The translations under genes and the position numbers were made by a program. This document shows positions 8,781-29,754 of a DNA stretch of 39,541 bases, in pieces. The notes beneath the pieces were generated by a model. That model was given only the letters and a program-made list of their open reading frames with translations, was not told the DNA's origin and did not search any database. The stretch covers positions 1 to 39,541 of IMG/VR virus record IMGVR_UViG_3300025853_000236; one strand, given 5' to 3'. Each line of letters begins with the position of its first letter. The stretch's first letter is position 1. This stretch comes from a virus.

Positions 8781-10372
8781 TGTTATCGAAACAACAAGCC
8801 GTACAAGAAATCTTAAAGTGTGGCAAGTCTCAAGAGTACTTTGTCAATAACTTTTGCCGCATCCCACATGCGGTTCACGGATTGGTGCGTTTTGATACAT
8901 ATGATTTTCAAGATGAGTTGCTTGTTGATTTAGAGAAGTATCGCTTCAATGTCGTTCTCAAAGCAAGACAGATGGGTATCTCAACAATTGTTGCTGCTCA
9001 TATCTCTTGGCTAATGATGTTTCACAAGCACAAGAAGGTTCTTATTCTCTGTACAAAACTAGAAACAGCAAAGAACGTTGTTGTTAAGGTAAAAGAGATG
9101 GTGAAGAATCTCCCAGAGTGGATGCAGATTGCTAAGATCACTGTAGATAACAGAACCTCGTTTGAACTATCAAATGGCTCTTGGATCAAGGCTTCTTCTA
9201 CTTCAGGAGATGCAGGGCGTTCGGAAGCTCTTTCTCTACTTGTGTTAGACGAGGCTGCTTTCATTCCTGATATGGATGATCTGTGGACGGGTATCTACCC
9301 TACAATCTCTACAGGGGGGCGCTGTATTGCCCTCTCAACGCCTAACGGTGTTGGTAACTGGTTCCACACTACCTATGTCGATTCGGTGTCTGGAGTGAAC
9401 GCTTTTAAGCCCACAGAGCTACATTGGAGTAGGCACCCAGACAGGGACAAGAAGTGGTTCGAAAACGAAACTAAGAATATGTCTCCGAGACAAATCGCAC
9501 AGGAGTATGAATGTAACTTCAATGCTTCTGGTGAAACTGTTATTGCTCCCGATGATATTGAAAGAATTGAGAAGATGGTTTGTGAGCCAAAGCACAAAGT
9601 TGGATATGATAGAAATTATTGGATCTGGGAAGAGTGCCAAGATGGAAAGAAGTATGTATTGGTAGCAGACGTTGCAAGGGGTGACGGGGCTGACTATTCT
9701 GTATTCCACGTTGTCAATACGGATACAATGGAAATCGTTGCAGAATATAAAGGAAAGCCAAACATTGATGACTTTGCAAATATGCTTTACTCGGCAGGTA
9801 GAGAATATGGTGGATGCTTACTGGTGGTTGAGAACAATAATATCGGATATTCAGTTCTTGAGAAGCTAATCGAGATGGAATATCCAAATATTTATTTCAG
9901 TGTCAAAGGATCAGGCGAGTACATAGAGCAGGTTTCTGCGATAGGAAATCAAAGTGCCGTTCCGGGCTTTACAACATCTATGAAAACTCGTCCATTAATT
10001 ATTGCCAAATTAGAGGAGTTCGTCAGAAATAAACTAATTACTATAAAATCTTTACGTTTATTGAATGAATTAAAGACTTTTGTGTGGTATTTGGGTAAAC
10101 CTCAAGCCATGAAAGGATATAACGATGATTTGGTAATGGCATTGGCTATTGCTTGCTGGGTTAGAGACACAGCGATCATTGCTTCCAAAAGAGGAGAGGA
10201 GTTGCAAAAAGCGATGCTAAATTCTATGGTATATACCAACACAGTCCTTAACACAAATATTAGAGGACAGCAGGGATACAACAAGAATCAATCTTCTTTT
10301 GAGGTTCAACAAGGAAGTCTGGAGAAACATAAACGTAACTTAGATCAATTTGGTTGGATATTCAAAGGATAA
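8780..10372 (+). CDS. Terminase large subunit (gp17-like)
   Basis: The 530-residue protein has both halves of a packaging motor. The ATPase shows a deviant Walker A, KARQMGIST at 61-69, and Walker B LLVLDEAA at 153-160 with Asp157 and Glu158; ALSTPNG (184-190) fits the coupling motif. The nuclease shows VADVARGDGADYSVF with Asp297, VVENNN with Glu351 and YNDDLVMALA with Asp449/450, the acidic triad of RNase H-fold terminases. It cuts concatemers and pumps DNA through the portal, whose gene follows 4 bases after the stop. T4 gp17 is 610 residues; the difference lies mainly in a shorter N-terminus. Confidence 0.95.
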   Translation: MLSKQQAVQEILKCGKSQEYFVNNFCRIPHAVHGLVRFDTYDFQDELLVDLEKYRFNVVLKARQMGISTIVAAHISWLMMFHKHKKVLILCTKLETAKNVVVKVKEMVKNLPEWMQIAKITVDNRTSFELSNGSWIKASSTSGDAGRSEALSLLVLDEAAFIPDMDDLWTGIYPTISTGGRCIALSTPNGVGNWFHTTYVDSVSGVNAFKPTELHWSRHPDRDKKWFENETKNMSPRQIAQEYECNFNASGETVIAPDDIERIEKMVCEPKHKVGYDRNYWIWEECQDGKKYVLVADVARGDGADYSVFHVVNTDTMEIVAEYKGKPNIDDFANMLYSAGREYGGCLLVVENNNIGYSVLEKLIEMEYPNIYFSVKGSGEYIEQVSAIGNQSAVPGFTTSMKTRPLIIAKLEEFVRNKLITIKSLRLLNELKTFVWYLGKPQAMKGYNDDLVMALAIACWVRDTAIIASKRGEELQKAMLNSMVYTNTVLNTNIRGQQGYNKNQSSFEVQQGSLEKHKRNLDQFGWIFKG

Positions 10373-10376
10373 AATA

Positions 10377-12320
10377 ATGGCTGACAATAAAAAGAACCCT
10401 AGAAACCCACAGAGTACTCTGTATAAAAGGTTGACAAAATTACTCTCATCTCCTATCGTCAATAGACGAACGCAGATGCAAAGACGTTATAAACGAGCAG
10501 ATATGGATAAATACAATTTTAATTCTGCTATGGGATTGGACTTTAAGAAGACTTCATACAATCCATATGACAATATGACTGCGAACATCATGGCGAATCA
10601 AAATCGTTATGAAAGATATACAGACTTCGATCAGATGGAGTATACTCCAGAGATTGCTTCTGCTCTTGATATCTATGCAGATGAGATGACTACCTCTACT
10701 ATGTTGTCCCCGATGCTTAACATTAAGTGTCCAAACGATGAGATCAAAATGATTCTTAAGAATCTTTATGAAGAAATTTTAAACGTTGATCTCAATCTTT
10801 TTGGATGGAGTCGCTCGCTTTGCAAGTATGGCGACTTTATGTTGTACTTGGATATCGATGCCACAATGGGTATTCGTCACGCAATCTCTCTCCCTATTGA
10901 TGAGGTTGAAAGAATCGAAGGGGAAGACAAAACAAACCCAAATTATATTCAATATCAATGGAACTCTGGCGGATTGACTTTCGAGAACTGGCAGATTGCC
11001 CACTTCAGAATATTAGGTAATGATAAATATGCTCCATATGGAACTTCAGTCCTTGAGCCTGCAAGAAGAATCTGGAGACAATTGACTCTACTTGAAGACG
11101 CAATGATGGCATACAGAATTGTTCGTTCTCCAGAAAGACGTGTGTTCTATATTGATGTCGGTAATATTGCTGCTCAAGATGTAGAACAGTTCATGCAGCG
11201 TGTCACTACACAGATGAAAAGAAATCAATTAATCGATGCGAACACTGGGCGTGTAGATCTACGTTACAATCCGTTATCTATCGATGAGGACTATTTTATT
11301 CCTGTTAGGGGTGGTAACAGCTCTAGAGTTGAATCGTTGCCGGGTGGCTCATATACGGGTGATATCGATGATGTTAAATATCTACGTGATAAGTTGTTCT
11401 CTGCTCTCAAGATTCCAATGTCGTATCTTTCAAGAGGAGACGGACAAACAGAAGACAAAGCTACTCTTGCACAGAAAGACATTCGTTTCGCAAGAACTAT
11501 CCAAAGATTACAAAGATCAGTTATCTCTGAGTTAGAGAAGATTGGATTGGTTCATCTTTATACTCTAGGTTATCGTGGTGATGATCTTATCTCTTTCAAG
11601 TTGCTCCTAAACAATCCTTCTAAGATTGCTGAACTTCAAGAACTTGAACACTGGAAACAGAAGTTTGATATTGCTGGTGCTGCTACTGAAGGGTTCTTCT
11701 CTAAGCGTTGGATCTCTGAAAACATTCTTGGAATGTCTGATGAGGAATTCCTTAGAAACCAAAGAGAGATGTTTTATGATAAGAAGATGGCATCTATGCT
11801 TGAGAAAGCTTCTGAAGAGATTCCTGCCTCTGCACCTGATACTGGTGCCGCAGGAGGACTCGGAGGAGGAGGCGGACTTGATCTCGGTGGCGGTGGAGAC
11901 GCCGGTGGAGGACTTGATCTCGGAGGAGATGCTGGCGGTGGTGAAGCACCTGCTGGAGACGCTGGTGCAGACGCCGGTGGCGGTGGTGATGAAGGTGGAG
12001 GAGCAGAATCCTCTTTACTCGCAGCACCGGGTAACAGAAGCCGTGATAAAGATGGCAAGGTATCAAGAGGCGATGGCAAGGGCAGAAGAAAGGTTAAGCC
12101 AGTCAAAGATGCTGAAGCAGGCAGGGCTGCTAGAACTAATAGCACCAAAGCTGTCACAAATCCAATGAAAAGAATGTTCAGTGATCCTATTGCAAACATT
12201 GTTAATACCGTGTACGAGGCGGAAGAAAAACAGATTTACGATAAAGAAGAGAAGCAACTATTTAATATTAGTCACGATATGAAAGTGCTACTTGAAAGTA
12301 TGGAGCCTAAAGAAAAATGA
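10377..12320 (+). CDS. Portal vertex protein (gp20-like)
   Basis: From ATG 10377 the product is 647 residues. The T4-type portal core is clear: FDQMEYTPEIASALDIYADE near residue 85, LLEDAMMAYRIVRSPERRVF near 240, and LFSALKIPMSYLSRGDG near 345. Portals are dodecameric rings at one capsid vertex that nucleate head assembly and hold the terminase. T4 gp20 is 524 residues. The excess here is mostly a C-terminal Gly/Asp/Ala-rich stretch (about residues 490-545), followed by a basic segment and a helical end. In-frame codons upstream from TTG 10350 overlap the terminase gene and lack a ribosome site, so ATG 10377 is chosen. The stop overlaps the next start (ATGA). Confidence 0.93.
   Translation: MADNKKNPRNPQSTLYKRLTKLLSSPIVNRRTQMQRRYKRADMDKYNFNSAMGLDFKKTSYNPYDNMTANIMANQNRYERYTDFDQMEYTPEIASALDIYADEMTTSTMLSPMLNIKCPNDEIKMILKNLYEEILNVDLNLFGWSRSLCKYGDFMLYLDIDATMGIRHAISLPIDEVERIEGEDKTNPNYIQYQWNSGGLTFENWQIAHFRILGNDKYAPYGTSVLEPARRIWRQLTLLEDAMMAYRIVRSPERRVFYIDVGNIAAQDVEQFMQRVTTQMKRNQLIDANTGRVDLRYNPLSIDEDYFIPVRGGNSSRVESLPGGSYTGDIDDVKYLRDKLFSALKIPMSYLSRGDGQTEDKATLAQKDIRFARTIQRLQRSVISELEKIGLVHLYTLGYRGDDLISFKLLLNNPSKIAELQELEHWKQKFDIAGAATEGFFSKRWISENILGMSDEEFLRNQREMFYDKKMASMLEKASEEIPASAPDTGAAGGLGGGGGLDLGGGGDAGGGLDLGGDAGGGEAPAGDAGADAGGGGDEGGGAESSLLAAPGNRSRDKDGKVSRGDGKGRRKVKPVKDAEAGRAARTNSTKAVTNPMKRMFSDPIANIVNTVYEAEEKQIYDKEEKQLFNISHDMKVLLESMEPKEK
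11845..12009 (+). repeat. Gly/Asp/Ala-rich low-complexity repeat in the portal C-terminus
   Basis: About 55 codons encode short repeats of GGLDLGG, DAGGG and GADAGG. The DNA repeats GGTGGAGGACTTGATCTCGG-like units imperfectly. The same word order (GGLDLG, DAG, EAPA) occurs in the scaffold protein at 26952-27003. It probably forms a flexible linker on the portal. Confidence 0.8.
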
Positions 12321-13695: not shown

Positions 13696-14517
13696 GTGAA
13701 AGAGTTACTAAAAGAATGGAAACAATATTCTGAATATCATGAATTATTTGAAAGACATGAATACATTCAGCATGCATTAGGATTTGAGCCACTTCTGAAT
13801 GAGAGTGGCGGCATATACTACACCTCAGATATGAAAGATCAGATCATAGAAGAGCACTTGTTACTTGAAGGCTTTTTCGATCAATTTAATCCAATTGAAA
13901 CGATCAAGAAGTATGGCAAAGAAGTTGGGGAACTGTTTTCTACCTTATATGGCGTTATTAAGAATCCAAAGTATATACCTGATTTTGTTTCTGCAATAAT
14001 TAAAAGAATCTTAAACAATTGGAAAGAAAAAATAAATTCTGTCGTAACTTGGCTAGAAGGAAAGAACATGCCAACGTTTGCCGCTGGATTGAAAAAGATT
14101 ATAAGTGGAATAAATTCTATTATTAATATGGAAGTTAATTGGAAGAAAGCTATTCTTATCACTGGTGTTGTTATTGGGGTTTCTTATCTTTTTGATAAAC
14201 TAAAAGACGTCGGACTAGATATTCTTGGTGGGATTGGGGACATCAAAGATCAAGTATTGGAAGCTGCTGAAAATTTCATAACTAAAGAATTTCCCAAGAT
14301 TGTGACTAAACTATATGGCAAGGCTGCACTAGCAGCGTCATCAGGGTTTCTTGGATGGGTTGTAGGCGCTATAGCAGTCATAAAGGTTGTAAATTTGGCA
14401 AAAGATGCTCTTAAACCTATGTTTGAAAGATACAAAGAACTTACACGACGAAGAGACAACAGAGAGAAGACTGCACAAGATGGCATAATTAGATTGGAAA
14501 ACAGACTTAAGGATTAG
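13696..14517 (+). CDS. Hydrophobic putative internal head or membrane protein
   Basis: The 273-residue protein starts at GTG 13696, with AGGAG 8 bases upstream. Hydrophobic stretches occur at about 155-168 (AILITGVVIGVSYLF) and 210-231 (AALAASSGFLGWVVGAIAVIKVV), separated by amphipathic helices, and the C-terminus is strongly basic (KELTRRRDNREK). Near the N-terminus LLNESGG (34-39) contains an L-x-E site of the kind T4-type prohead proteases cleave. A hydrophobic, partly amphipathic protein in the head cluster could be an internal protein ejected with DNA to act at the host membrane, or an ordinary membrane protein. It is unrecognised by sequence. Confidence 0.5.
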   Translation: MKELLKEWKQYSEYHELFERHEYIQHALGFEPLLNESGGIYYTSDMKDQIIEEHLLLEGFFDQFNPIETIKKYGKEVGELFSTLYGVIKNPKYIPDFVSAIIKRILNNWKEKINSVVTWLEGKNMPTFAAGLKKIISGINSIINMEVNWKKAILITGVVIGVSYLFDKLKDVGLDILGGIGDIKDQVLEAAENFITKEFPKIVTKLYGKAALAASSGFLGWVVGAIAVIKVVNLAKDALKPMFERYKELTRRRDNREKTAQDGIIRLENRLKD

Positions 14518-14519
14518 AT

Positions 14520-14816
14520 GTGGAATTACTTTGGTTTACACTCTCAGCTTATGGGTTAACACAGATATTAGTTTATGGTTCGATCTTTAAATCATTCAGA
14601 GACTACACCCTGAAATATACCAAACTTTTATCTTGCCCAATGTGTACAGGATTTTGGGTTGGAGTTATTTTATTTTTCCTTAATCCTTTTACAGAACTAT
14701 TTACATTTGAGTTAAATTTAGCAAATTTTTTAATTTGTGGCTGGCTATCGTCTGGGACTTCCTATATACTATGTATGCTATTTGACGACGATGGTTTAAA
14801 AATTATGAGGAAATAA
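14520..14816 (+). CDS. Small membrane protein with CPMC motif (DUF1360-like)
   Basis: The 98-residue protein starts at GTG 14520. The ATG two bases earlier is in another frame and closes after 13 codons. Three hydrophobic segments are visible, and the first cytoplasmic-side loop has LLSCPMCTGFWVGV. This matches the Cys-Pro-x-Cys-x-Gly-Phe-Trp pattern I associate with the DUF1360 family of small membrane proteins found in bacteria and phages. Function is not known for that family. It begins 2 bases after the preceding stop and probably depends on translational coupling. Confidence 0.6.
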   Translation: MELLWFTLSAYGLTQILVYGSIFKSFRDYTLKYTKLLSCPMCTGFWVGVILFFLNPFTELFTFELNLANFLICGWLSSGTSYILCMLFDDDGLKIMRK

Positions 14817-14817
14817 A

Positions 14818-14955
14818 ATGAATATCAAGATCCCCAAAAAAAGAGCAATGGAAATTATGAAAGAAGAAATCGAGAAGTTCTTGCAAGAAAACAAGAATGT
14901 CGATAGAAAACTTTTAGAGTCCTACATTTCAAAAACTACAGGAGAAAAGAAATGA
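14818..14955 (+). CDS. 45-residue lysine/glutamate-rich small protein
   Basis: A short frame runs from ATG 14818 to TGA 14955, with its stop overlapping the next ATG (ATGA). The product starts MNIKIPKKRAMEIMKEEIEK and continues FLQEN. That pattern of basic start, amphipathic helix with KEE, and an L-x-E site resembles the N-terminal leaders of the next proteins. The tight spacing (one base after the previous stop) and the overlap support it as a real gene. A weak GAGGAAA site lies upstream. Function is unknown; it could be a minimal internal head peptide. Confidence 0.55.
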   Translation: MNIKIPKKRAMEIMKEEIEKFLQENKNVDRKLLESYISKTTGEKK

Positions 14956-15338
14956 GAGTAACAAAATCTTATATTAAACAATTGGTAAAAGAAGAATTAA
15001 CTAAGGTTCTTAACGAGTCAGCCCCTACTGAAGATGTACAAAGAATTATGGATTATTTGAAAGATGTTTACGTGATGCCAAAAGACGCAGCAGAATTCGA
15101 AAGTGCTCCAGAACGATTTGGCGGACAAGGAAAGTCTTTTGAAGAATTTGCCAAAGAAGTGGAAGCAGCAACCGGTGCACCATACGCTAAAGTATATTCT
15201 GTCTTCTTGTCTCACGATGGCTCAGATCGAGAAGGGCTTGGGCAACACAAAGCCAAAAGCTCAGGACACAGTGCGAATGACAAAGCATTGGCTGCTCAGT
15301 CTAGAAGAATTAGAAAAGGTTCAATGCCTAAAATTTAA
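14952..15338 (+). CDS. Small protein with capsid-targeting-like N-terminal leader
   Basis: The 128-residue protein begins MRVTKSYIKQLVKEELTKVL, followed by NE and SAP. The first 16 residues are nearly identical to those of the 232-residue neighbour at 15351, and both then have an L/I-x-E site ending at residue 22. After that the two proteins differ completely. A shared amphipathic leader followed by a protease-type site is the plan of T4 internal proteins and their capsid-targeting sequence. The body contains GQGKSFEEFAKEVEAATG and a basic C-terminus (SRRIRKGSMPKI), which would suit contact with packaged DNA. Function is inferred. AGGAGAAA precedes the start. Confidence 0.6.
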   Translation: MRVTKSYIKQLVKEELTKVLNESAPTEDVQRIMDYLKDVYVMPKDAAEFESAPERFGGQGKSFEEFAKEVEAATGAPYAKVYSVFLSHDGSDREGLGQHKAKSSGHSANDKALAAQSRRIRKGSMPKI

Positions 15339-15350
15339 GGAAATATTATT

Positions 15351-16049
15351 ATGAAAGTTACAAAATCTTATATTAAAAGAATTATCAAAGAAGAGTTAGC
15401 TCAGGTTATCAAAGAGTTCGATCTAGATGCCTTCGATTCGGATACAGGTGCAGGAGAGTCTCAAGAAGATATTGACAAAAGAGAAAGAGAAGAAGACTTT
15501 GCTGATTACATGAAGATGCTGTTTGGTGCGTTTCATAATATCGCAACTAACGAAAAGGCTGCCGTCATTGCAGCAATGAATCTTCAGAGACAACCAGAAC
15601 TGTTTAAGTCTTTTAATATTGTTTATAAGCTATTGTCTCAAGTCGTACAAGGAAACACAAATGTTGGACTTCAAAAAGTAGATGAAGGTTCCATTAAGTG
15701 TCCAGAAGGTGATGCTTTTGAGGAGTGCGCAAGAGCAAAGATAAAAGAGTTCTATTCAGTCGATCCATTGTTCAGTAAGTTAGGTGGAGCAATAGAAAAA
15801 CTAGATTACGATTTTAGTGATAGTTTTAGAGATTCGTCCAGCGGCCCTTACTATGGTAATGGCTTTATGGCTGTTTCTAAGATTGCTCCTGATGATGGTA
15901 CAAAACAACAAAAAATTTATGAGTATTTCAACAAGAATGTAAAAAATATTTATGAATTTATGTCTAGAGATGGATTTAATCCTAGCAATTATGCAGGCGG
16001 TGACGTCAGATATATTGAGGGCGGAATGTCAAAGAGAGGTGAAATGTGA
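15351..16049 (+). CDS. Protein with capsid-targeting-like N-terminal leader
   Basis: The 232-residue protein begins MKVTKSYIKRIIKEELAQVI, then KE at 21-22. It shares its leader with the preceding gene, including an identical 18-base DNA stretch (ACAAAATCTTATATTAAA). The body is acidic after the leader and then mixed, with a Gly/Tyr/Asn-rich C-terminal third. It is unrecognised. Its place immediately before the prohead protease supports a prohead interior role like T4 IP or gp67/68-type components. AAGGAA is the ribosome site. Its stop overlaps a 16-codon micro-ORF. Confidence 0.6.
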   Translation: MKVTKSYIKRIIKEELAQVIKEFDLDAFDSDTGAGESQEDIDKREREEDFADYMKMLFGAFHNIATNEKAAVIAAMNLQRQPELFKSFNIVYKLLSQVVQGNTNVGLQKVDEGSIKCPEGDAFEECARAKIKEFYSVDPLFSKLGGAIEKLDYDFSDSFRDSSSGPYYGNGFMAVSKIAPDDGTKQQKIYEYFNKNVKNIYEFMSRDGFNPSNYAGGDVRYIEGGMSKRGEM

Positions 16050-16099
16050 TGATTAGATGGATGCTACAACCAGTAAGAAGATGCAAGAACGGGTGTTGA
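16049..16099 (+). CDS. Possible 16-residue micro-ORF
   Basis: ATG 16049 overlaps the upstream stop (ATGA) and gives MIRWMLQPVRRCKNGC before TGA 16097-16099, just 3 bases short of the protease ATG at 16103. It fills the gap between the two genes exactly. It could be a real peptide (two cysteines in CKNGC, basic RR), or a coupling device that carries ribosomes to the protease, whose own Shine-Dalgarno is weak. A chance frame cannot be excluded. Confidence 0.3.
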   Translation: MIRWMLQPVRRCKNGC

Positions 16100-16102
16100 C
16101 GT

Positions 16103-16714
16103 ATGAGTAAAGTTTTATTAAGAGAATATTATGAATTATGTGAAGGCGGTGTTTGCCAAGATATGCTTACCGAAGCAGAAAAGAAATATGTTGCTAACGG
16201 TGGGATGATCTTGACAGGTAAACTGCAAGAAGCAGAAGTTCAGAACGGAAACGGACGAGTGTATCCTAGAAAGATCCTCGAAAGAGAAATGAAGAACTAT
16301 ATGATGCTTGTGAAAGACAGAAGAGCATTGGGAGAGTTGGATCATCCAGATGATTCTGTTATCAACCTCAAGAATGCTTCACATATGGTTACAGACGCAT
16401 GGTGGGATGGAAACAATGTTATGGGAAAAGTTAAAATCCTTAACACTCCGTCTGGCAAGATTTTACAACAACTTGTCAATGACGGTGTTAAGTTGGGCAT
16501 TAGTAGTCGGGCTCTTGGCTCTGTCAATGAATCAGGGGGAAAAACGATGGTTCAAGAGGATCTTCAACTTATTTGCTTTGATTTTGTTAGTGAACCTTCT
16601 ACTCCTAACGCATTTATGGCTCTCCAAGAAGCCAAGAATATCAGAATTGAAACAGATATTTTCGACAAGAAGTACAAATTAAACAGAATGTTAAACGAAA
16701 TATTGGAGGATTAA
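16103..16714 (+). CDS. Prohead core protease (gp21-like)
   Basis: The 203-residue protein has the T4 gp21 family pattern: NGNGRVYPRKILEREM at about 48-63, ALGELDHP with His81, and LGISSRALGS with the catalytic Ser at 134 or 135. These fit the His/Ser dyad of herpesvirus-assemblin-like prohead proteases. It matures the prohead by cutting scaffold, internal and capsid proteins after L/I-x-E. It has such a site in its own N-terminus, MLTEAEKK (cut after Glu24), which could be for self-processing. The likely substrates surround it: leader proteins upstream and downstream, and gp22 and gp23 further on. In T4, gp22 follows directly; here about 10 kb intervenes. Confidence 0.92.
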   Translation: MSKVLLREYYELCEGGVCQDMLTEAEKKYVANGGMILTGKLQEAEVQNGNGRVYPRKILEREMKNYMMLVKDRRALGELDHPDDSVINLKNASHMVTDAWWDGNNVMGKVKILNTPSGKILQQLVNDGVKLGISSRALGSVNESGGKTMVQEDLQLICFDFVSEPSTPNAFMALQEAKNIRIETDIFDKKYKLNRMLNEILED

Positions 16715-16717
16715 GTA

Positions 16718-17350
16718 GTGAAAAACAAAAACAACATGAAATTGTTAATGGAAAACTTTAACAAGTTTTTGGAAGAAGAAAAGATTGAAGAGATGAAGTT
16801 TAATCCAATGGGGCTGGGGCAATTAAACCCTATGCATAGTTTTCCAGATTACATGCAGGCTGCGTATTATGCTGTATTGGTTGCCAGTAGCGAAGAACTG
16901 GGTGAACCAGAAGCGGTTAATGTCGCTAAAGAAAAATTCCTTAAACAAAATGCCGATAATCCAAATGCCGGTAAACAGTTCAGAGATTTCATGAATGCTG
17001 CCAGAGCAGCCGGAAGAAACCCAGAAACTGCTGAAAAACAACTTGCTCAAATTCCGCAAGAAATTAAAGACTATTTCGATCAAGATTTGATATATCCAAG
17101 ATCACAGGCAGTTAGGAGAAAAATCACAAGTGATAAATTCGACAAAGGCATGTCAGATGAAGAGTATGGCAAATTTAAATCAGACAAAGAAGCGAAAGCC
17201 GCTGCATATCAAAAAGAAAAGGAAGCGCAAAGAAAAGAAGTCGAAGCATGGATGGCAAAACGTAGAGCAGAAGATCCTGAATACTTTGCTTATATGGACA
17301 GTCTCAAAGAAAACCTACAAAGACTTCGCAAACAAAAGAGGATTAAATGA
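16718..17350 (+). CDS. Helical protein after the protease, possible prohead internal protein
   Basis: The 210-residue protein starts at GTG 16718, supported by GGAGGA at 16705-16710; an ATG at 16736 is the alternative. The N-terminus (MKLLMENFNKFLEEEKIEEM) is a short amphipathic helix with Leu-Glu-Glu, resembling the leader of the neighbouring proteins. The middle is helical with Ala/Asn/Gly turns, and the last 80 residues are highly charged (Lys/Glu repeats), ending QRLRKQKRIK. It is not recognised. A core or internal head protein is the best positional guess. The stop overlaps the next start (ATGA). Confidence 0.55.
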   Translation: MKNKNNMKLLMENFNKFLEEEKIEEMKFNPMGLGQLNPMHSFPDYMQAAYYAVLVASSEELGEPEAVNVAKEKFLKQNADNPNAGKQFRDFMNAARAAGRNPETAEKQLAQIPQEIKDYFDQDLIYPRSQAVRRKITSDKFDKGMSDEEYGKFKSDKEAKAAAYQKEKEAQRKEVEAWMAKRRAEDPEYFAYMDSLKENLQRLRKQKRIK

Positions 17351-17790
17351 ACAAGAAAGAATTAAAGCAATTAATCAAGCCACTTGTAAAAGAGTGCATC
17401 AGAGAAGCATTACTTGAAGAAGGAATGCTTTCAACTGTCATTAGCGAAGTTGTTAAAGGAACATCAGGACTAGTCGTAGAGCAACGAAGTCAAAGAATCC
17501 AAGAGACTACAGAGAGAGTCTTGGAAACAAATGAAGATACAATGCGCAGACTTCAAGAAAGAAAAGTACAACAACAAACTCAAAAAAGAAAACTACTTGA
17601 TGCTATTGGATCAGATGCTTATGGCGGCGTAGATCTTTTTGAAGGAACAGAGCCTTTAACAAAGGCTGGTAAAGCAGGAGACGGTGCATCTGCTCAAGGC
17701 GCATTGTCGACTTATGCCCCAGATGATTCAGGAGTAGATATTTCAGGATTGCTAAATTTAGCAGGCGGTTCTTGGAAAAAAATCAAATAA
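17347..17790 (+). CDS. Small protein with leader-like N-terminus
   Basis: The 147-residue protein starts MNKKELKQLIKPLVKECIRE and continues ALLEEGML. The basic, amphipathic start and the L-E-E site at 23-25 follow the plan of the leaders at 14952 and 15351 in a diverged form. The middle is a Gln/Arg/Glu-rich coiled coil (about 45-85). The last 60 residues are acidic and Gly/Ala/Ser-rich. No enzymatic motif is visible. It ends the head-maturation cluster; a late promoter-like element follows within 5 bases of its stop. Confidence 0.55.
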   Translation: MNKKELKQLIKPLVKECIREALLEEGMLSTVISEVVKGTSGLVVEQRSQRIQETTERVLETNEDTMRRLQERKVQQQTQKRKLLDAIGSDAYGGVDLFEGTEPLTKAGKAGDGASAQGALSTYAPDDSGVDISGLLNLAGGSWKKIK

Positions 17791-17821: not shown

Positions 17822-18271
17822 ATGGCTATAACATCAGTTAACGGAGTAGACTTCCAGCATCATCAATACACAGTAGGGTTAAATAACGTAGGATCATATC
17901 AAGTATCAGGCATGCCCTTCTGCTCAGGTTCAATCAGTGCAAGAGGCAGCTCGGCAGTTATTGTTGAGTTTCCATATGTCACACAATGGATCCAAATTAC
18001 AAATCATGATACATCTTACGAATTGTCCTGTTCTTTTACGCCAGAGGGAATGTCTGGATCTAATTTTTTCAAAATACATTCTGCACCTACCAATGATAAA
18101 GCAGCAGGATACGGATTGACTTTACCAGTAAAGTGTACAAGATTGTATTTTACAGGCTCAACAAACTTCGATATTGTAGCAGGCTTGACTGGAATTCCAA
18201 TTGGTAGGATTGGTGAAGTATCTCCATCAGGAAGTGGCGTTAACTTCCGTGGATTGTATACTGGCGTATAA
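17822..18271 (+). CDS. Small virion structural protein (unrecognised)
   Basis: The 149-residue protein starts with MAITSVNGVDFQHHQY. It consists of short, alternating hydrophobic and polar stretches with many Gly, Ser and Thr residues (VGSYQVSGMPFCSGSI, RLYFTGSTNFDIVAGL) and reads as one beta-sandwich domain. It has its own candidate late promoter and precedes the bS21 gene. Single-domain beta proteins of this size in head or fibre clusters are often decoration or fibre-tip proteins, but neither is shown here. Confidence 0.5.
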   Translation: MAITSVNGVDFQHHQYTVGLNNVGSYQVSGMPFCSGSISARGSSAVIVEFPYVTQWIQITNHDTSYELSCSFTPEGMSGSNFFKIHSAPTNDKAAGYGLTLPVKCTRLYFTGSTNFDIVAGLTGIPIGRIGEVSPSGSGVNFRGLYTGV

Positions 18272-18284
18272 ATAAGGAAAACAA

Positions 18285-18503
18285 ATGAGTAAAAAAAGTA
18301 TTATGACTGTGAAGCCTCGCAGAAACGAGTCACAGGAAAGAATGATTAAACGCTTCATCAAGAAGTGCAAGAAAAAAGGTATCATCGATGAGGTAAAAGA
18401 TCGACGATACTTTAAATCCAATTCTCAAAAAAAGAACGAAAGGAATAGAAAAAGAAAAAGAGCCATCGAGAAAGCAAAAGCAAAAGAAAAAGGCAAGGGA
18501 TGA
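18285..18503 (+). CDS. rpsU: Ribosomal protein bS21 homologue
   Basis: The 72-residue protein matches bS21 in length (E. coli 71) and pattern. TVKPRRNESQERMIKRFIKK aligns with the E. coli [20 protein letters not shown] region, then a KKKGIIDEVKDRRYF segment corresponds to EKAGVLAEVRRREFY. The C-terminal half is a Lys/Arg/Asn/Glu helix like the family's. bS21 sits on the 30S platform near the anti-Shine-Dalgarno helix and is needed for initiation. Phage copies are known from some marine and large phages and are thought to replace or supplement host bS21 to favour phage mRNA. It lies between two virion genes, so it should be made late. AAGGAAA is its ribosome site. Confidence 0.85.
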   Translation: MSKKSIMTVKPRRNESQERMIKRFIKKCKKKGIIDEVKDRRYFKSNSQKKNERNRKRKRAIEKAKAKEKGKG

Positions 18504-18544
18504 ACTATTTATTTCTGAAAAACGTTTAATAGAGGAATAGTTCA
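18501..18544 (+). promoter_or_regulatory. Inverted repeat spanning promoter and start codon
   Basis: TGAACTATT at 18501-18509 and AATAGTTCA at 18536-18544 are perfect 9-base inverted repeats. The right arm ends on the A of the ATG at 18544. The loop holds the late promoter-like TATTTAT and the GAGGA ribosome site. RNA reading through from bS21 could fold and hide the start, whereas RNA begun at the internal promoter would lack the left arm. Confidence 0.6.
18506..18512 (+). promoter_or_regulatory. Candidate late promoter (TATTTAT)
   Basis: CTATTTATTT overlaps the end of the left arm of the inverted repeat at 18501-18544 and lies 31 bases before ATG 18544. Initiation about 6-8 bases downstream of the element would leave the left arm out of the RNA. 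Confidence 0.6.
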
Positions 18545-19347
18545 TGGCAAATGTGGTAAATTATGGTTGGGCTTATGTGCACCCCACAGCATCGCAAGCA
18601 CAAGCAAGAGGTGTAGATAAATCAATTCAGTTTCTCTCTGGCGCTGTTGATTCGAATGGTATTGGAGTAGGATCAGGATCTGCTGATTTTACATTTGATT
18701 ATGCGAATAGTCAGTTAGCTTTGACAGGAAATATGACGGCAAGCGGACACATCTCTGCTTCTGCTTTCTATGGAGATGGTTCGAATCTTGAAGGAGTGGA
18801 CTCTTTTCCGTATACGGGTGATGCAGTTATCACAGGATCACTCACAGTCACTCAGGCAATAACTGCTTCAAACTATATTATAGAAAATACAATCGAAATC
18901 AATAACAATGGATCTTCACAATTTGGAAACTCGAATGATGATACTCATGTCTTTACTGGATCTGTTTCGTTTGTATCCGGCACTACAACTCAAGTTGAAT
19001 ACAGCACAACCAACAATCAATTGATGGTTCCCGGATTAAGAGTGGCTTATAGATCTGAGTCGCTTACATCCTTTACTGCTTCGATAAGCGACTATATTAT
19101 AGGGATTAGCTCAAACATCACGACACCAGTAGCAGTTGAATTGCCAACCGCTGCCGCAGCAGGAGAAGGCTCAATCATTGCGATCAAAGATGAGGCATCT
19201 GGAGGATCAAGAACTTCGGGTAATGCCATTACTGTGTCAGCTAATTCTTCTGATACTGTCGATAATACTAATAGCGTACAAATTGCTGGAACAATGGCTT
19301 CTAAGACATTTTACTCTAATGGAATCGACAAGTGGTTCGTGATATAG
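18544..19347 (+). CDS. Fibre-like structural protein with shared C-terminal domain
   Basis: The 267-residue protein is rich in Ser, Thr, Asn and Gly. Near residue 70 it has TGNMTASGHISASAFYGDGS, the GDGSNL motif common in phage fibres and also present in the protein at 24193. Its last ~95 residues (SISDYIIGISSNITTPVAVE, then LP, then GSIIAIKDEA and IDKWFVI) share a pattern with the ends of the proteins at 23070 and 24193: xxIGVSS, xVxLP, G-x-x-x-IKxE, VTxS, a DG/NG turn and a hydrophobic final strand. This is probably a trimeric beta-rich tip. Receptor binding or head decoration are both possible. GAGGA is the ribosome site. Confidence 0.6.
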   Translation: MANVVNYGWAYVHPTASQAQARGVDKSIQFLSGAVDSNGIGVGSGSADFTFDYANSQLALTGNMTASGHISASAFYGDGSNLEGVDSFPYTGDAVITGSLTVTQAITASNYIIENTIEINNNGSSQFGNSNDDTHVFTGSVSFVSGTTTQVEYSTTNNQLMVPGLRVAYRSESLTSFTASISDYIIGISSNITTPVAVELPTAAAAGEGSIIAIKDEASGGSRTSGNAITVSANSSDTVDNTNSVQIAGTMASKTFYSNGIDKWFVI

Positions 19348-19356
19348 GAAGGAACT

Positions 19357-22300
19357 ATGGCTTACAACTCATTAAGTGGAACGGTAATCGGCCCAGACAA
19401 AATCGTAGCAAAACCAGATGGCACATTTACTCAAATCACTGGAACAATATCAGGATCTTATATTGATGCTGATGGAAATGCTGTTTCTTTTTCATCAATT
19501 GGAACAGAAGATGGGGGTACTATTGGCGCAGCAGAAGATGGAAACTATGATGACGGACTATTTCAAGACTTCACAACGAGTACTTTGATAGGTGTTCCTA
19601 TCGATAGGTTCAACGAATTGTTCAAATCACTTGTTCCTCCTCCTGCTCCGAATGTATCTAGAATAGATGCAACCCAAGATGGAACAGACGCTTATCTTTC
19701 ATTCGGATCCAGCAATAATATGGAATCAGACACCACTCCTTATTTTTCTGTTGGAACTCAAGCAGGCTTTTCTGCTGTTGATAAAGGTGGGCTATACGAA
19801 ACAGACACATCCGGTAATAATTTTAGACGATCCATCTTCCAACTGGACACAAATATTACCGGTTTCATTAATTTTGATGTTACTGCATCTGTATTGGGTT
19901 CAGAAACCAACTATGAAGCAGATGCCTTTGGTAACGGAGAAACTGGCTCTTTGCAATTGTTCGTCAATGACACATCGACAGCAATCCACACTTTGGAACT
20001 TTCTACTGCAACTGGTACAGGTAATCCCGGTTCTGGATTGAGTTCTTCGTTGAACAGTGATGGATCCGGATTCACAAACATTTCGATATCGGCATCTGCT
20101 ACTGATGCAAACTCAAACACCTTTGATATTTTTCAACACAGGACAGCTAAATATGTTGTTCATTCTGCTTCTCAGAGAAGAGGCTGGAACTATGCTTTTA
20201 TAAGACACACAGTTGGATCTACAAATTACGATACGAATTATATTGAATGGGTTAATGATGATGAGCCAACAAATGTGACAATCACAGGTGATACGCTAAC
20301 CAACATTACATTAAATGGATCTAGATATATTTCCGGTGTCCAATACAATACCAGTGCAACTGCTGATTATCAATTTTTAATATCCAACTTTTATAAGAAT
20401 GTTTATGACTTAGCTACAGTTACCTGTTCTGACTCTACTTCAAATGCATCGATTACGAACGCTACAATGCCTCATATTGGCTCCGATGATGAAAACAAGA
20501 CTGTTGCCCTTACTCAATCTTTAAGCACGACTGATACCATCATTTTGAACGAATCTATAGGCGCCACTTCATCAGTAACTCACATACTCAAAGGAAACGC
20601 TACTTCGAATACTAGCATGACTGGGTTTCTTATTTTCACACCAACAGTCAATAACGCTACGGAGACTGCAGAATATTTTAAAGATGAAGCAACTTGGAGA
20701 ATCGCATCTGGAACATATGAATCCCAAGCATCTGTATCAACAGGATCTTGGAATAGCGAAACTCATATGACTGGCTCAGGAAACCATGCCGACGGATTAC
20801 AGATTTATAATCAAAGATTGGTTTCCCCTCTGAATACAACAAACGGTGGAAACTTTTCTACAATCTTGAATACAGAATCAGGAAATCCGGATTATTCTAC
20901 TGTAGCAGGATTGAGAACATATTATAGAGCATTCCAAAACACAGGGGCTGCAGAGAGAGACGTGTCGATCACAATTAAAGGATCGGCTACCATTGTATCT
21001 TCTGGAGCTTCTTTGGGAGCAAATGCAAACGTTAGAGTTCTTGTCAAGACTCCGGGAAAAACAGACTGGATGAATCTTGCCGATAACTTCACTTTCAATG
21101 ATGTGTCGGAAGGTGCCGGAGCAAATGAGCTGGGATTAGATGCCACAATCGACGCATCTGGTGCGGTGAATGTCGCAACACTTGGCACAAAAGTTGTCGA
21201 CACAAATGAATATTTCCTTGTGAGAATTGAAGCGGATGCTGGTTGGACTGGTAATGTTACGGAGATATCTGTATCATTCGGAGCAGGAACTGGATCACCA
21301 ACATACGGCGTTAGTCTAGACGAGATAAATGAAAACACTTCAAATAATGGTTCGCCTGCTAAACTTTCTTTCGGGAACAGTAAGTCGATCACTGGTTATA
21401 CTAACGTTCTCTCATCCCCATTCATCAATGGAGACGTCGATATCAATGATCTTTGGGCGATCAACACATCACAGACAAATCAAAGACTTGGCATATACAA
21501 TAAAACAATTGACATCACAGCAAGGTTGAATGATTCTGGAGAATCTTATAGAATTGACTCTGGATCTGCTGGAGATTTAAAACTTTTCATTAATGGAACT
21601 GAACGTCATTCTATAGACTTTTCTTCTTTTGTGAGCGGAGACAGTTTGAACAACTCCACTGGAAGTGGATTCACTGACGTATCAGCAATTGAATATCCAA
21701 CGTATTCAAATAATGTTCGTGATTATACTCGCCCATTCAGAACTGGATCTTTAAAGGTTGACGCCGGAGATCAGAGAAATGGCTGGAACTTTGTACAAGT
21801 TAAGCACAGTGGTACTTGGGGAGAATTAGAAACAAACTATATTGAATGGATCAATGATGATGATGCTTCTTCGATATCTATCACTGGTGGTACGTTAGGA
21901 GACTTCAACAACGATGGATCGATATATTATAGTTCTGGTATTAGGCACTTCTCAACAACACCATCAGCATCATTCACCCTGACATCTTCAAACAACTATA
22001 AGAACGTATACGATGATTCAAGTTTAGCAATTGATTTTAATGATGTTTTGACAAATGTTTCTATCGCAGCAATGACAGCAAGCGGAACTGGAATCAACAC
22101 ATTGACAGATGCAAATGGAGTCTCTGCTTATCCATCCCTTTTAACCACAGCAGATTCCGAGACAGAAGACGTTAACTATGATTTAACTTTGAACTTCTCT
22201 CGAACTTTCTCACTAGTTGGTGAATTTGTGTCTGATGGGAATACGCATACAGCATCTATAGGAAGGGTAAAATTCTTAAACCCTCCGTTTAATGGAAACG

Positions 22301-23070
22301 ATGAAGTTTATTCAAAATTTACATCTTTTGCTTCTCCTTCCAAGGCTGGCTTCTTGAGAAACAATTCAGACTCTACGAATACTGATCAATACGACTCGGA
22401 AGGGTTTGGAACTGAAGATCACAGACTAGAAAACAGAAACGTTACTTATACACAGCAATCTCATGTATCTGGTGGTAGTGGATTCCCAAGTGCTTGGAAT
22501 TCAGAATATTCTGTAAACGATGAGACAAGTTATCCAAACTATTCTGATGGATTGGTTGTTTTCGGTGGCAAACTTATTGCACCTCCAATGGCAGGAATCA
22601 CTGGTAGTTTTTCCACCCTGCAAGCACCAGCAGGAAACCCAGACTACAGGATCACACAACTTTCCCAGAGTACAAGAACATATGTAAGATATTTTAAAAA
22701 TAATTTCGGCTCAACCAAAACAGGGTTTACTGTAACTTTTTACGGATCTGGAAGTTTGGATGACTTAGCAGCATCATATGCAGGAGGGGCATTTAAATTT
22801 GAATATAAGATCCCATCTTCTAATGCCTCAAACTCAACTGCTTGGCAAGATGGTGGAAAGGCTTTGTCTTTCTCTGGAGATAGAAACGTTGATGGAAATG
22901 GGGGAGCACAAGGCTCAGATTCTCAATTCCCACTAACTATATCTACAGGTGGTACTTCCTTGAATGTTTCTTTCAACGGAGGGAACTGGCTACCTAATGA
23001 ATATATGTTAATCAGAGTCAGAGCCAGCGCCAGTTGGGATGGATACTTAGACAGGATAGAGGTGAGCTAA
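19357..23070 (+). CDS. Giant repeat-containing structural protein
   Basis: The 1237-residue protein contains an internal duplication. A ~560-residue unit starting near residue 92 recurs near residue 653. NYIEWVNDDE (about 293) returns as NYIEWINDDD (about 826), FYKNVYD (about 346) as NYKNVYD (about 880), SGNPDYS (about 508) as AGNPDYR (about 1092), and FLVRIEADAGWTGN (about 620) as LIRVRASASWDGY near the end. The sequence is Ser/Thr/Asn/Gly-rich with many YxxG and NGS turns, so it should be all-beta and extended, like a long fibre or surface protein. A short unique N-terminus (about 90 residues) may attach it to the virion. Its stop overlaps the next start (TAATG). Confidence 0.65.
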   Translation: MAYNSLSGTVIGPDKIVAKPDGTFTQITGTISGSYIDADGNAVSFSSIGTEDGGTIGAAEDGNYDDGLFQDFTTSTLIGVPIDRFNELFKSLVPPPAPNVSRIDATQDGTDAYLSFGSSNNMESDTTPYFSVGTQAGFSAVDKGGLYETDTSGNNFRRSIFQLDTNITGFINFDVTASVLGSETNYEADAFGNGETGSLQLFVNDTSTAIHTLELSTATGTGNPGSGLSSSLNSDGSGFTNISISASATDANSNTFDIFQHRTAKYVVHSASQRRGWNYAFIRHTVGSTNYDTNYIEWVNDDEPTNVTITGDTLTNITLNGSRYISGVQYNTSATADYQFLISNFYKNVYDLATVTCSDSTSNASITNATMPHIGSDDENKTVALTQSLSTTDTIILNESIGATSSVTHILKGNATSNTSMTGFLIFTPTVNNATETAEYFKDEATWRIASGTYESQASVSTGSWNSETHMTGSGNHADGLQIYNQRLVSPLNTTNGGNFSTILNTESGNPDYSTVAGLRTYYRAFQNTGAAERDVSITIKGSATIVSSGASLGANANVRVLVKTPGKTDWMNLADNFTFNDVSEGAGANELGLDATIDASGAVNVATLGTKVVDTNEYFLVRIEADAGWTGNVTEISVSFGAGTGSPTYGVSLDEINENTSNNGSPAKLSFGNSKSITGYTNVLSSPFINGDVDINDLWAINTSQTNQRLGIYNKTIDITARLNDSGESYRIDSGSAGDLKLFINGTERHSIDFSSFVSGDSLNNSTGSGFTDVSAIEYPTYSNNVRDYTRPFRTGSLKVDAGDQRNGWNFVQVKHSGTWGELETNYIEWINDDDASSISITGGTLGDFNNDGSIYYSSGIRHFSTTPSASFTLTSSNNYKNVYDDSSLAIDFNDVLTNVSIAAMTASGTGINTLTDANGVSAYPSLLTTADSETEDVNYDLTLNFSRTFSLVGEFVSDGNTHTASIGRVKFLNPPFNGNDEVYSKFTSFASPSKAGFLRNNSDSTNTDQYDSEGFGTEDHRLENRNVTYTQQSHVSGGSGFPSAWNSEYSVNDETSYPNYSDGLVVFGGKLIAPPMAGITGSFSTLQAPAGNPDYRITQLSQSTRTYVRYFKNNFGSTKTGFTVTFYGSGSLDDLAASYAGGAFKFEYKIPSSNASNSTAWQDGGKALSFSGDRNVDGNGGAQGSDSQFPLTISTGGTSLNVSFNGGNWLPNEYMLIRVRASASWDGYLDRIEVS

Positions 23071-24092
23071 TGCCAATTACAGCAGGAACAGGATCGACTA
23101 ATCAAACCATGACAGTATCAGCTTTCAAGAAGCTGGTAGGTAAAACCAATACAGGTAATCAAAAAGCGTTTTACGAAGAAACGGTTGCTTCATCGATTCA
23201 GATCAATACGAAGAGAATATTTGGAGATGACATTCCTCAAAGTGTCCCAAACCCAACAGATGCAATTGCTGCTGGAGATTTATATAACACATATTCAGCC
23301 TCAGCAGGTGGAGCAGATATTGTCCAGATTGTTGAATTTGATGTTATTGGGTTTAACAGTCAATATGATGCCGATGCAGATAAAACATTTGGCGATGTTG
23401 AATATTTTGGTGGCGATGAATCTCAGGTATCTGGCGAACACGGATACTATCTGAGACTTAGTGCAGATTATAACACTAGTTCTTCTTTTGGAGGGACTGC
23501 TCCTTTTTCAAGTTCTCAGGTAGTATATGCTTCAAACGGTGCACTTCAATTAGTCCATCCTCAGTTCGGCCCAGCAACTAGTAATGGGTATTTCTTGGAA
23601 CTATACACTTCCAAAGGCGGTACAAGAATTAATGATACCGATCCGACTGATTGGGTTGTAGATTATTATAATGGAACAATCTTGGTGCAAGATTATGATG
23701 CATCCAAGATTCCAACATATGCTGTCGCTTATATCTATATTGGAAAGTATGCAGATGAAAAAATATCTGACGCCTCTGGATCTGGTGGAGGAATCTCTTA
23801 CAGCAGGACTGCAGTGACAGCAGACACAACAGCATCTGTCAATGATGTTATAATAGGTGTATCTTCTTCAGGAGATTTAGACAATATTGAAATACGTCTT
23901 CCAGATGCTTCAGATTTATCAAATGGGCAATACTTCTTAATCAAGAAAGAAGATAACTTTGCTAGCACAGTAACTATTAGCCCTTCAGGGACACAAAATA
24001 TTGATGGGCAAAATAATTCTATCGTAATTCAGTCTGGCTTTGGGGCAGTAAACCTTTACACAGATGGCTCTAGCAACTACTTTATTTATTAG
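23070..24092 (+). CDS. Fibre-like structural protein with shared C-terminal domain
   Basis: From ATG 23070, which overlaps the preceding stop, the product is 340 residues; an in-frame ATG at 23034 lies inside the upstream gene and is unlikely. The N-terminal part includes MTVSAFKKLVGKTNTGNQKA and a middle domain with DWVVDYYNGTILVQDYD, which resembles baseplate/fibre-type beta domains. After a Gly/Ser linker (ASGSGGGISYSR) the last ~90 residues (DVIIGVSSSGDLDNIEIRLP, FLIKKEDNF, QNIDGQN and a final NYFIY) are the shared tip domain. It probably works with the giant protein it is coupled to. Confidence 0.6.
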   Translation: MPITAGTGSTNQTMTVSAFKKLVGKTNTGNQKAFYEETVASSIQINTKRIFGDDIPQSVPNPTDAIAAGDLYNTYSASAGGADIVQIVEFDVIGFNSQYDADADKTFGDVEYFGGDESQVSGEHGYYLRLSADYNTSSSFGGTAPFSSSQVVYASNGALQLVHPQFGPATSNGYFLELYTSKGGTRINDTDPTDWVVDYYNGTILVQDYDASKIPTYAVAYIYIGKYADEKISDASGSGGGISYSRTAVTADTTASVNDVIIGVSSSGDLDNIEIRLPDASDLSNGQYFLIKKEDNFASTVTISPSGTQNIDGQNNSIVIQSGFGAVNLYTDGSSNYFIY

Positions 24093-24124
24093 TCTTTTAC
24101 ATCTTGAGATGACTATATAATAAT

Positions 24125-24158
24125 GACGAGTATATGGCGGAGACGTTCGCTGCTCGTT
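24125..24158 (+). other. Imperfect hairpin in the 100-base gap
   Basis: GACGAG and CTCGTT (one G-U pair), with inner GCG/CGC, could pair in the gap between two fibre genes. No U-run follows, so a terminator is not supported. TATATAAT at 24114-24121 just upstream is a poor match to the late promoter element. Confidence 0.25.
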
Positions 24159-24192
24159 TATGCTTAATTAACAAAATATGGAGGGTTTAATT

Positions 24193-25302: not shown

Positions 25303-25334
25303 TATTGTTTCAGTATTAAAAAGATTTATTCTTG

Positions 25335-25364
25335 GAGGGTTGGGCGAAAGTCCAACCCTTTTTC
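25335..25364 (+). terminator. Intrinsic terminator
   Basis: AGGGTTGGGC (25336-25345) pairs with GTCCAACCCT (25350-25359), with one G-U, around a GAAA tetraloop. TTTTT follows. It ends the unit that includes the abundant fibre gene and abuts the next late promoter-like element. Confidence 0.85.
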
Positions 25365-25372
25365 TATTTATA
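25365..25372 (+). promoter_or_regulatory. Candidate late promoter (TATTTATA)
   Basis: TATTTATA begins one base after the terminator T-run and lies 19 bases before ATG 25392, with GGAGG between. The terminator-promoter junction argues that it is used. Confidence 0.65.
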
Positions 25373-25391
25373 TCAAAATGGAGGATTGAAT

Positions 25392-27957: not shown

Positions 27958-29754
27958 ATGTCTATCGTTGAAAAATTAACTGAAGGTATTGTCAGACGTG
28001 ATCTTGCTAAAGAAGGTGCTGCTCTGTTGAACAAATGGGAGCGCACTGGTTTGTTGGAAGGTTTGAATTCTGATTATGCTAAAAATAACATGGCTTCTCT
28101 TCTTGAGAACCAAGCTAAGGAACTGCTTCGTGAGGCTTCTTTGATGTCATCTGGTGATGTTGAAGGTTTTGCTGCTGTTGCTTTCCCTATCGTTCGTCGT
28201 GTATTCGGCTCACTTATCGCTAACGATCTTGTTAGTGTACAGCCAATGTCTTTGCCATCTGGTTTGATCTTCTTCTTGGATTTCAAATTTGCTGAAGATG
28301 CAAAAGGACTTGGTAATCACCGTACAGATTCTCTTGATTATGATCAAGGCGATTCTATCTACGGACAAGGTATCATCGGTTCACAATTGACTGGTGGTGT
28401 ATCTATTAATGAAGATAAGCAACCATACGGTTTCCAAACTGGTTTCTCTTCTGCAACTGGTTCTGCTACTTTCTCTGCTTCTGCTAATACCACAACTCAC
28501 GTTTCTGGTGGTGCAGTTCTCGCAGGACAGCGTGGCGATGGCTCTACAATGGATAAGCTGCTTCGTTTCGATCCAGATATCGCTTCTGCTTCTTATGTTG
28601 CTGTTTATAAAGCATCTGCTGGAGGTTTGACTTCGAAGCAAGCAGACATCACTGAAGCTGGATTAGCAAACCTTGTTTTCTCTTCTAGTGCTGGTGGTTT
28701 AAACCAAATTAACGGTAACGGATCTACTATCGGTATTGGAGATAATCATGTTTCTGGAACCCTTGTACGTCGTTTGGTTCAATATTCTGGATCTTCAAGA
28801 GATAATATTCTTTTGCCATTCGTTTGTTCAGCCGATCCCGGTACTCTTGCTGATGCTGATTTGACAGCAGTTGTTGGCTCAAGTCTAGAATTCATCATTG
28901 CTGATAACTTTGTAACTGGTGGTGCTCTTGGTTCTGTTGCTGGTGACGACACTTGGGGACTTGAAGCTTCTTCTGATATCCCGGAGATCGAAATCAAAGT
29001 AGACTCAATCAGCGTAACAGCACGTACCAAAAAGTTGAAAGCAAAGTGGAGTCCTGAACTTGGACAAGACTTGAACGCTTACCACAACTTGGATGCTGAA
29101 GTCGAATTGACTTCTATCTTGTCTGAGCAAATTGCTTTGGAAATTGATCGTGAGATCTTGGCTGACTTGATTAAAGGTGCTAAAGCTGCTACTTACTACT
29201 GGAGTCGTTCTCCCGGATTGTTCGTGAACAAAGTTACTGGCTCTCCTACTGTAGATTCTTCTGCAATTGCTCCTGACTTCACTGGAAACGTTTCTGAATG
29301 GTATGAGACTCTGATCGAAACCATCAATGACGTATCTGCTCAAATCCACAGAAAGACACTTCGTGGTGGTGCTAACTTCTTGGTTTGCGGCCCTGAAGTT
29401 GCAAACATCCTTGAGTTCACCTCTGGTTTCCGTGCTAACGTTTCTCACGCTGATGAGAAAGGTACTGTTGGTGCTGTAAACGTAGGTTCTATCTCTAAGA
29501 AGTTTGATGTTATGGTTGATCCATACTTCCCACGTAACGTAGTTCTTGTTGGACGTAAAGGTAACTCTTTCCTTGAAAGCGGTTACGTATATGCTCCTTA
29601 CGTGCCTCTTCAGGTAACTCCTACTATCTTCGGAACTGAGGACTTTGTTCCTCGTAAAGGTGTAATGACTCGTTACGCTAAGAAGATGGTTCGTCCTGAT
29701 ATGTACGGTTTGGTTATCGTTCGTGGACTTTTGGGTGACGATCAAGTAACCTAA
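27958..29754 (+). CDS. Major capsid protein (gp23-like)
   Basis: The 598-residue protein has T4 gp23 landmarks: AAVAFPIVRRVFGSLIANDL followed by VSVQPM near residues 73-98, and LVCGPEVANILEF near 476. The KKFDVMVDPYFPRN and TRYAKKMVRPDMYGLVIVRGL segments are the C-terminal P-domain landmarks. It should be made with a removable N-terminal delta domain; KELLREASLM offers an L-R-E site that would be cut after Glu59, comparable to Glu65 in T4. It is Gly/Ser/Ala-rich in the middle insertion (about 140-330). Arginine is mostly CGT, unlike most neighbours, a sign of high expression. A terminator follows. Confidence 0.95.
   Translation: MSIVEKLTEGIVRRDLAKEGAALLNKWERTGLLEGLNSDYAKNNMASLLENQAKELLREASLMSSGDVEGFAAVAFPIVRRVFGSLIANDLVSVQPMSLPSGLIFFLDFKFAEDAKGLGNHRTDSLDYDQGDSIYGQGIIGSQLTGGVSINEDKQPYGFQTGFSSATGSATFSASANTTTHVSGGAVLAGQRGDGSTMDKLLRFDPDIASASYVAVYKASAGGLTSKQADITEAGLANLVFSSSAGGLNQINGNGSTIGIGDNHVSGTLVRRLVQYSGSSRDNILLPFVCSADPGTLADADLTAVVGSSLEFIIADNFVTGGALGSVAGDDTWGLEASSDIPEIEIKVDSISVTARTKKLKAKWSPELGQDLNAYHNLDAEVELTSILSEQIALEIDREILADLIKGAKAATYYWSRSPGLFVNKVTGSPTVDSSAIAPDFTGNVSEWYETLIETINDVSAQIHRKTLRGGANFLVCGPEVANILEFTSGFRANVSHADEKGTVGAVNVGSISKKFDVMVDPYFPRNVVLVGRKGNSFLESGYVYAPYVPLQVTPTIFGTEDFVPRKGVMTRYAKKMVRPDMYGLVIVRGLLGDDQVT

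Follow-up and report, generated by a model that had tools for sequence, protein, structure and literature searches.

Exchangeable N-terminal leaders on unrelated proteins of T4-like marine phages as probable capsid-targeting peptides

Leader genes around the prohead protease

The window analyzed here is the whole 39,541-nt (39.5-kb) stretch of the IMG/VR virus record IMGVR_UViG_3300025853_000236. Its head region is T4-like, with a terminase at 8780, a gp20-like portal protein as context (10350..12320, + strand; Portal_T4 E 8.2e-77), a gp21-like prohead protease that is the presumed processing enzyme (16103..16714, +; Peptidase_S77 E 2.5e-32, phrog_207 E 2e-53) and a gp23-like major capsid protein (27958..29754, +; phrog_138 E 1.4e-71), 3' of which lie the sheath and tube genes. 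The protease has no match above 60% identity in the phage collection. The major capsid protein carries a propeptide site, LLRE/A, after residue 59 (codon end 28134), and LL[RK]E at the end of the propeptide is kept in all nine major capsid proteins of these phages that span the stretch. Gene order differs from that of T4, in that a block of repetitive fibre-like structural genes (17822-26746) separates the protease from the capsid gene; a scaffold candidate is encoded at 26812. The head region also encodes a bS21 ribosomal protein (18285-18503; Ribosomal_S21 E 9e-9), and the annotated S21 gene of Microcystis phage Mel-JY01 likewise lies 3' of its protease. A search of the window for the late-promoter sequence TATAAATA returned six sites and was uninformative.

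Two genes upstream of the protease begin with the same kind of leader, termed class 1. The first (14952..15338, +, 128 aa) has the leader MRVTKSYIKQLVKEELTKVLNE at 14952-15017, followed by Ser and an ORFan body, and the second (15351..16049, +, 232 aa) has MKVTKSYIKRIIKEELAQVIKE at 15351-15416, followed by Phe and an unrelated ORFan body. In a within-genome comparison the two are 64% identical over residues 1-22 only (E 4.5e-4), which bears out the original prediction of a common 22-residue leader on unrelated bodies; the gp21-like protease was also correctly placed amid these genes. The 14952 product has 14 IMG/VR relatives, most of which match in the leader only and carry another body. The body of the 15351 product found no relative in a viral-contig scan, but the window's near relative, the 63-kb contig G001, does hold one. 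Single-sequence AlphaFold models place one helix at residues 5-22 in both proteins; at pLDDT 50 (14952) and 41 (15351), they lack the quality that a fold search needs.

Four further proteins had been proposed as diverged versions of this leader, and each proved to be a different case. Checking the FLEE motif of the protein at 16718 brought a second class of leader to light: the leader is real, but belongs to a separate class, and the probable start of the gene is ATG 16736 rather than GTG 16718 (16736..17350, +; leader MKLLMENFNKFLEE at 16736-16777, class-2 HMM). Its body has no relative in the viral-contig scan. Judged from its sequence, the layout of class 2 is closer to that of T4 than class 1 is. 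The protein at 13696..14517 (+) is a leader relative too, of class 2 rather than class 1: W8 and Y11 are kept, and a conserved stretch, PLLNE/S, ends at residue 36 (13803). Its homolog in contig G011 (L053:5932) starts with MKLIMENWRDF and retains the PLxNE/S stretch as PLNES. The 45-aa protein at 14818..14955 (+; IPKKRAMEIMKEEIEKFLQE) shows only a weak class-1 likeness, with relatives at an E of about 0.75 against the leader HMM (L007 and L008, 0.75-0.85; L013, 0.0046). The protein at 17347..17790 (+) has a loosely leader-like N-terminus (MNKKELKQLIKPLVKECIREALLEE) and is a conserved small head-region protein, present at 41-93% identity in every relative contig examined. The window thus holds two class-1 genes, one class-2 gene and one diverged class-2 gene.

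Leader classes and their exchange between proteins

Leaders of this kind recur in related phages. Among 80 viral contigs picked by the protease alone and searched in six frames with the leader model, 61 of 63 leader-HMM matches at E<0.01 coincide exactly with an ORF start, ahead of many different bodies. The final models, applied to 3.7 Mb of related phage DNA, gave 653 class-1 and 116 class-2 matches, 757 of these 769 at an N-terminus, and none in reversed or shuffled frames; chance similarity was rejected on account of this placement and these empty controls. Together the two classes stand at the head of 619 distinct proteins, whose bodies form 403 clusters.

Loci were also collected with a degenerate DNA pattern for M-K-I-T-K-x-x-L-K-x-I-I-K-E-E, which occurs in at least 120 stretches in IMG/VR and in only six in 257 Gb of prokaryote genomes, in four marine-type MAGs, two of them with an S77 protease. 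Because the pattern fixes residues 1-5, 8, 9 and 11-15, conservation at those residues is partly imposed in the pattern-picked loci; the protease-picked loci, class 2 and class 3 (below) are free of this bias. The bare 22-residue leader found no tblastn match in the phage collection, as expected for such a short query, and in four cultured T4-like phages class 2 had no match and class 1 weak ones at best.

The number of leader genes per phage varies widely: five class-1 genes in G001, five or six leader genes in G010 and G014, 27 in the 289-kb contig G023 and about 28 in a 306-kb contig binned as a Methylococcaceae MAG. Some phages have 20-30 leader genes in tandem arrays, and locus L349 of the 306-kb contig is almost a pure tandem array. 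The contig NHDW01000006.1 (L328, L349, L350), binned as Methylococcaceae, holds long leader-gene arrays and is probably a mis-binned jumbo phage, because an S77 protease is also present. Long arrays are likewise found on PBIO01000025.1 (L330, L352), binned as a Halobacteriovorax MAG.

Across 266 unrelated bodies the class-1 consensus is MKITKSQLKQIIKEELEKVLEE, and conservation drops abruptly to background past residue 22: in terms of information content, most of residues 1-15 carry about 3 bits, residues 16-22 carry 0.5-1.9 and those from 23 on about 0.1. Class 2 reads MKLLMENWRKFLNE, and a search with its model gave 104 of 105 matches at an N-terminus, in 59 body clusters. A third class, MKxLRxYIRxILLE, occurs in jumbo contigs (L293 and L294 in G023; L328 in G045) on about 21 proteins with different bodies, P-loop kinase-like and isochorismatase-like ones among them by eye. 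The three classes share an ending, hydrophobic-x-x-hydrophobic-[ILV]-x-E, that places Glu at residue 14, the key residues being L8/I11/I12/E14 in class 1, W8/F11/L12/E14 in class 2 and I8/I11/L12/E14 in class 3. Several leaders in the jumbo contig G023 are longer and still end in G-[LF]-[IL]-R-E followed by Ser or Thr.

A class-1-like helix, for example SLEELIKEELLRVLNEEE, is also found at the extreme C-terminus of seven proteins, encoded in L042 (233-aa ORF), L046 (458 aa), L060 (277 aa), L079 (217 aa), L181, L232 and L258; the L079 protein has it at both ends. These copies suggest a docking role that is independent of N-terminal position, and they are compatible with docking and at odds with N-terminal cutting.

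The leaders are exchangeable modules, since homologous bodies from different phages can differ in which of the two classes they bear. Nine body clusters in the final survey hold both classes. Bodies of L248 (class 1) and L230 (class 2) are 62.6% identical over 115 aa (E 7e-51), those of L030 (class 1, in a gene adjoining the protease) and an L123 homolog (class 2) are 38% identical over 185 aa (E 1e-37), and those of L178 (class 1) and L213 (class 2), both GNAT acetyltransferases by Pfam, are 38% identical over 168 aa (E 6e-28). In all three pairs homology begins past the leader, and these swaps are the strongest argument that the two classes do the same job.

Leaders of one contig are more alike than leaders of different contigs (0.566 vs. 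0.488; p 5e-4 by permutation), as a shared receptor would predict; in G001, for example, MKVTKSYIKQLVKEEL and close variants stand ahead of five different bodies. Gene copying could also be the source of this likeness, given a synonymous codon mismatch of 0.35 against 0.54 at saturation. Very recent duplication was rejected as the sole cause of leader similarity; synonymous codons differ at 35% of identical leader residues.

Taken together, the sequence comparisons show that the leader is a discrete N-terminal module that can be exchanged and that precedes hundreds of unrelated bodies in T4-like phages with an S77 protease. The idea put forward at the outset, a modular capsid-targeting leader on diverse cargo beside a gp21-like protease, thereby has strong support at the sequence level, from the number of unrelated bodies, the exchange of classes, the intact domains behind the leader and the protease in most large leader-bearing contigs.

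Predicted cut site, cargo and proposed function

Peptidase_S77 is present in 16 of 21 large leader-bearing contigs. The other five look incomplete: four have no T4-type portal either, and on the fifth the portal is reduced to a fragment at the contig edge. Since some leader genes are far from head genes, for example 30 kb from the major capsid gene in G001, synteny does not prove a head function.

The position of the predicted cut can be narrowed by comparison with T4, in which residues 4 and 7 serve targeting and residues 8 and 10 processing (PMC9026906). T4 IPII and IPIII start with MKTYQEFIAE/A, and their Y4/F7/I8/E10 have the same layout as the leaders when counted back from Glu. The match makes Glu14 the better candidate for a common cut. 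At the motif level, 98% of class-1 leaders have Glu14 within [LIV]-x-E, 81% of class-2 clusters have Glu14, and class 3 ends in [ILV]-x-E. A cut after Glu22 had been suggested for the 14952 and 15351 products, and Glu22 is indeed present in both, but it is less well conserved than Glu14: residue 22 of class 1 is Glu in 45% and part of [LI]-x-E in 32%. The second site is still over-represented: 53% of class-1 proteins have [LI]-x-E within residues 19-30, where 12% would be expected. For cargo with a DnaJ domain a cut at residue 22 is disfavored, because the domain starts at residue 18 and would be clipped. Two points count against the capsid-targeting reading: in class 1, Glu14 is followed by Glu15, as against Ala after the T4 site, and the terminal L-x-E is present in only about half of class-1 leaders. 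A common cut after residue 14 is predicted as more probable than one after residue 22.

Most bodies have no family match. Pfam matches among the class-1 representatives (140 + 122) are few, and none is to a replication or a head or tail structural family. The domains found behind class 1 are DnaJ, L,D-transpeptidase, pentapeptide repeats, GNAT, leucine-rich repeats and a ParB-like nuclease; those behind class 2 are Nudix, AAA_33, a Zeta-toxin-like kinase, a protein-kinase-like domain, DUF192 and a nucleotidyltransferase. In several proteins the domain begins immediately past the leader, at residue 18 for DnaJ, 23 for DUF192, 24 for NUDIX and 25 for AAA_33. A leader-bearing L,D-transpeptidase (YkuD; L235:6258-7055, - strand) with an SGGCIRL motif is an unusual cargo for a phage head. 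Judging by these domains, enzyme-type cargo appears to suit accessory effectors better than scaffold.

From these features it is likely that the leaders are capsid-targeting peptides that are cut by the gp21-like protease and load accessory, probably injected, proteins into the head; we infer the virion location, the cutting and the injection. Late in infection, the leader would form a short amphipathic helix that docks its protein on the assembling prohead core. The S77 protease would then cut past [ILV]-x-E, which by the position of the motif would be at residue 14 in all three classes, and in roughly half of class 1 another L-x-E, near residue 22, may mark a further cut. The freed bodies would remain in the head and probably be ejected into the host with the DNA, where, by T4 precedent and by their domains, they may act as accessory or counter-defence effectors. 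A broader and more tentative reading, nearly as likely as not, is a general system of protein delivery in which three or more interchangeable head-targeting codes, possibly addressing different core receptors or layers, load tens of array-encoded effectors per virion in uncultivated T4-like and jumbo marine phages for delivery at the earliest stage of infection.

An alternative possibility is that the leader does dock on the prohead core and that its proteins are core or scaffold components of the gp67/gp68 kind, degraded during maturation rather than injected. Several leader genes occupy the gp67/gp68 position adjoining the protease, the same helix is found C-terminally, and many bodies are small ORFans devoid of known domains. 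Nevertheless, such a role is unlikely, as it does not account for bodies whose catalytic or chaperone domains are intact (Nudix, GNAT, YkuD, DnaJ, AAA_33), and the total of over 400 unrelated bodies, with as many as about 28 genes in one phage, exceeds the need for scaffold. It is quite improbable that the leader stays uncut and sends proteins to another part of the virion or a host site, such as the tail, a membrane or an intracellular compartment; leader genes are scattered, some of them distant from head genes, and the terminal L-x-E is missing from many class-1 leaders, yet all three classes end in the cut motif of T4 gp21 in the T4 register and most large leader-bearing contigs have the S77 protease. 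That the conserved start is a nucleotide-level element for translation or recombination is very improbable: near-universal placement close to the start and synonymous sites below saturation would fit it, but synonymous codons do differ, conservation of the hydrophobic and Glu residues extends to position 22, and homologous bodies can carry a second, unrelated leader in place of the first.

If the leaders are indeed capsid-targeting peptides, the sequence of a tag of 14-22 residues would by itself be enough to pick out, from the 'hypothetical' genes of ocean phages, hundreds of proteins that virions deliver, and would lead directly to factors of first-response counter-defence and host takeover. 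The T4 capsid-targeting sequence (CTS) would then be a single instance of a far wider packaging code, for which natural leaders and cargo are available for testing.

Comparison with T4 and other known systems

In T-even phages one CTS is carried by unrelated internal proteins (IPs), of which about ten have been reported (PMC12373910, PMC3012670, PMC9026906, PMC9391042), and IPI-III of T4 inhibit distinct GmrSD restriction enzymes (PMC12373910, PMC3012670). The leaders described here share with the T4 CTS (IPI, IPII, IPIII and the Alt propeptide) a short N-terminal Met-Lys leader with a hydrophobic-[ILV]-x-E end, unrelated bodies under one leader, an S77 prohead protease in the phage and, at -6 and -3 relative to Glu, a hydrophobic or aromatic residue. 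In a register aligned by eye, the counterparts of T4 Tyr4 and Phe7 are W in 91% and F/Y in 89% of class 2, and L and I in class 1. Class 2 has no match in T4, and the best for class 1 has an E of 0.029 and covers profile residues 1-9 only; because profile searches showed no significant similarity, the leaders are classed as working like the T4 CTS and not as its proven homolog. They also differ in having 14 residues instead of 10, class 1 being conserved over 22, and in forming at least three sequence classes on hundreds of body families, a single phage having as many as about 28 such genes, in arrays.

For ejection proteins of the phiKZ/SPN3US type, we know of no short, common, exchangeable leader. 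The likeness there lies in many head proteins that are processed after Glu by a gp21-like prohead protease (PMC9026906). The IP loci of T-even phages, whose products are injected anti-defence proteins, are similar in pairing a conserved leader with hypervariable accessory cargo (PMC12373910, PMC3012670), whereas the putative cargo here is far more diverse and includes enzyme and chaperone domains. A literature search for the leader strings, of partial coverage, found no description of them. T4 is known to deliver only a few proteins, while the present leaders begin dozens of otherwise unrelated small proteins in many uncultivated T4-like marine phages. Within the literature searched, a system of this kind is known from T4, and the present scale and leader sequences are undescribed.
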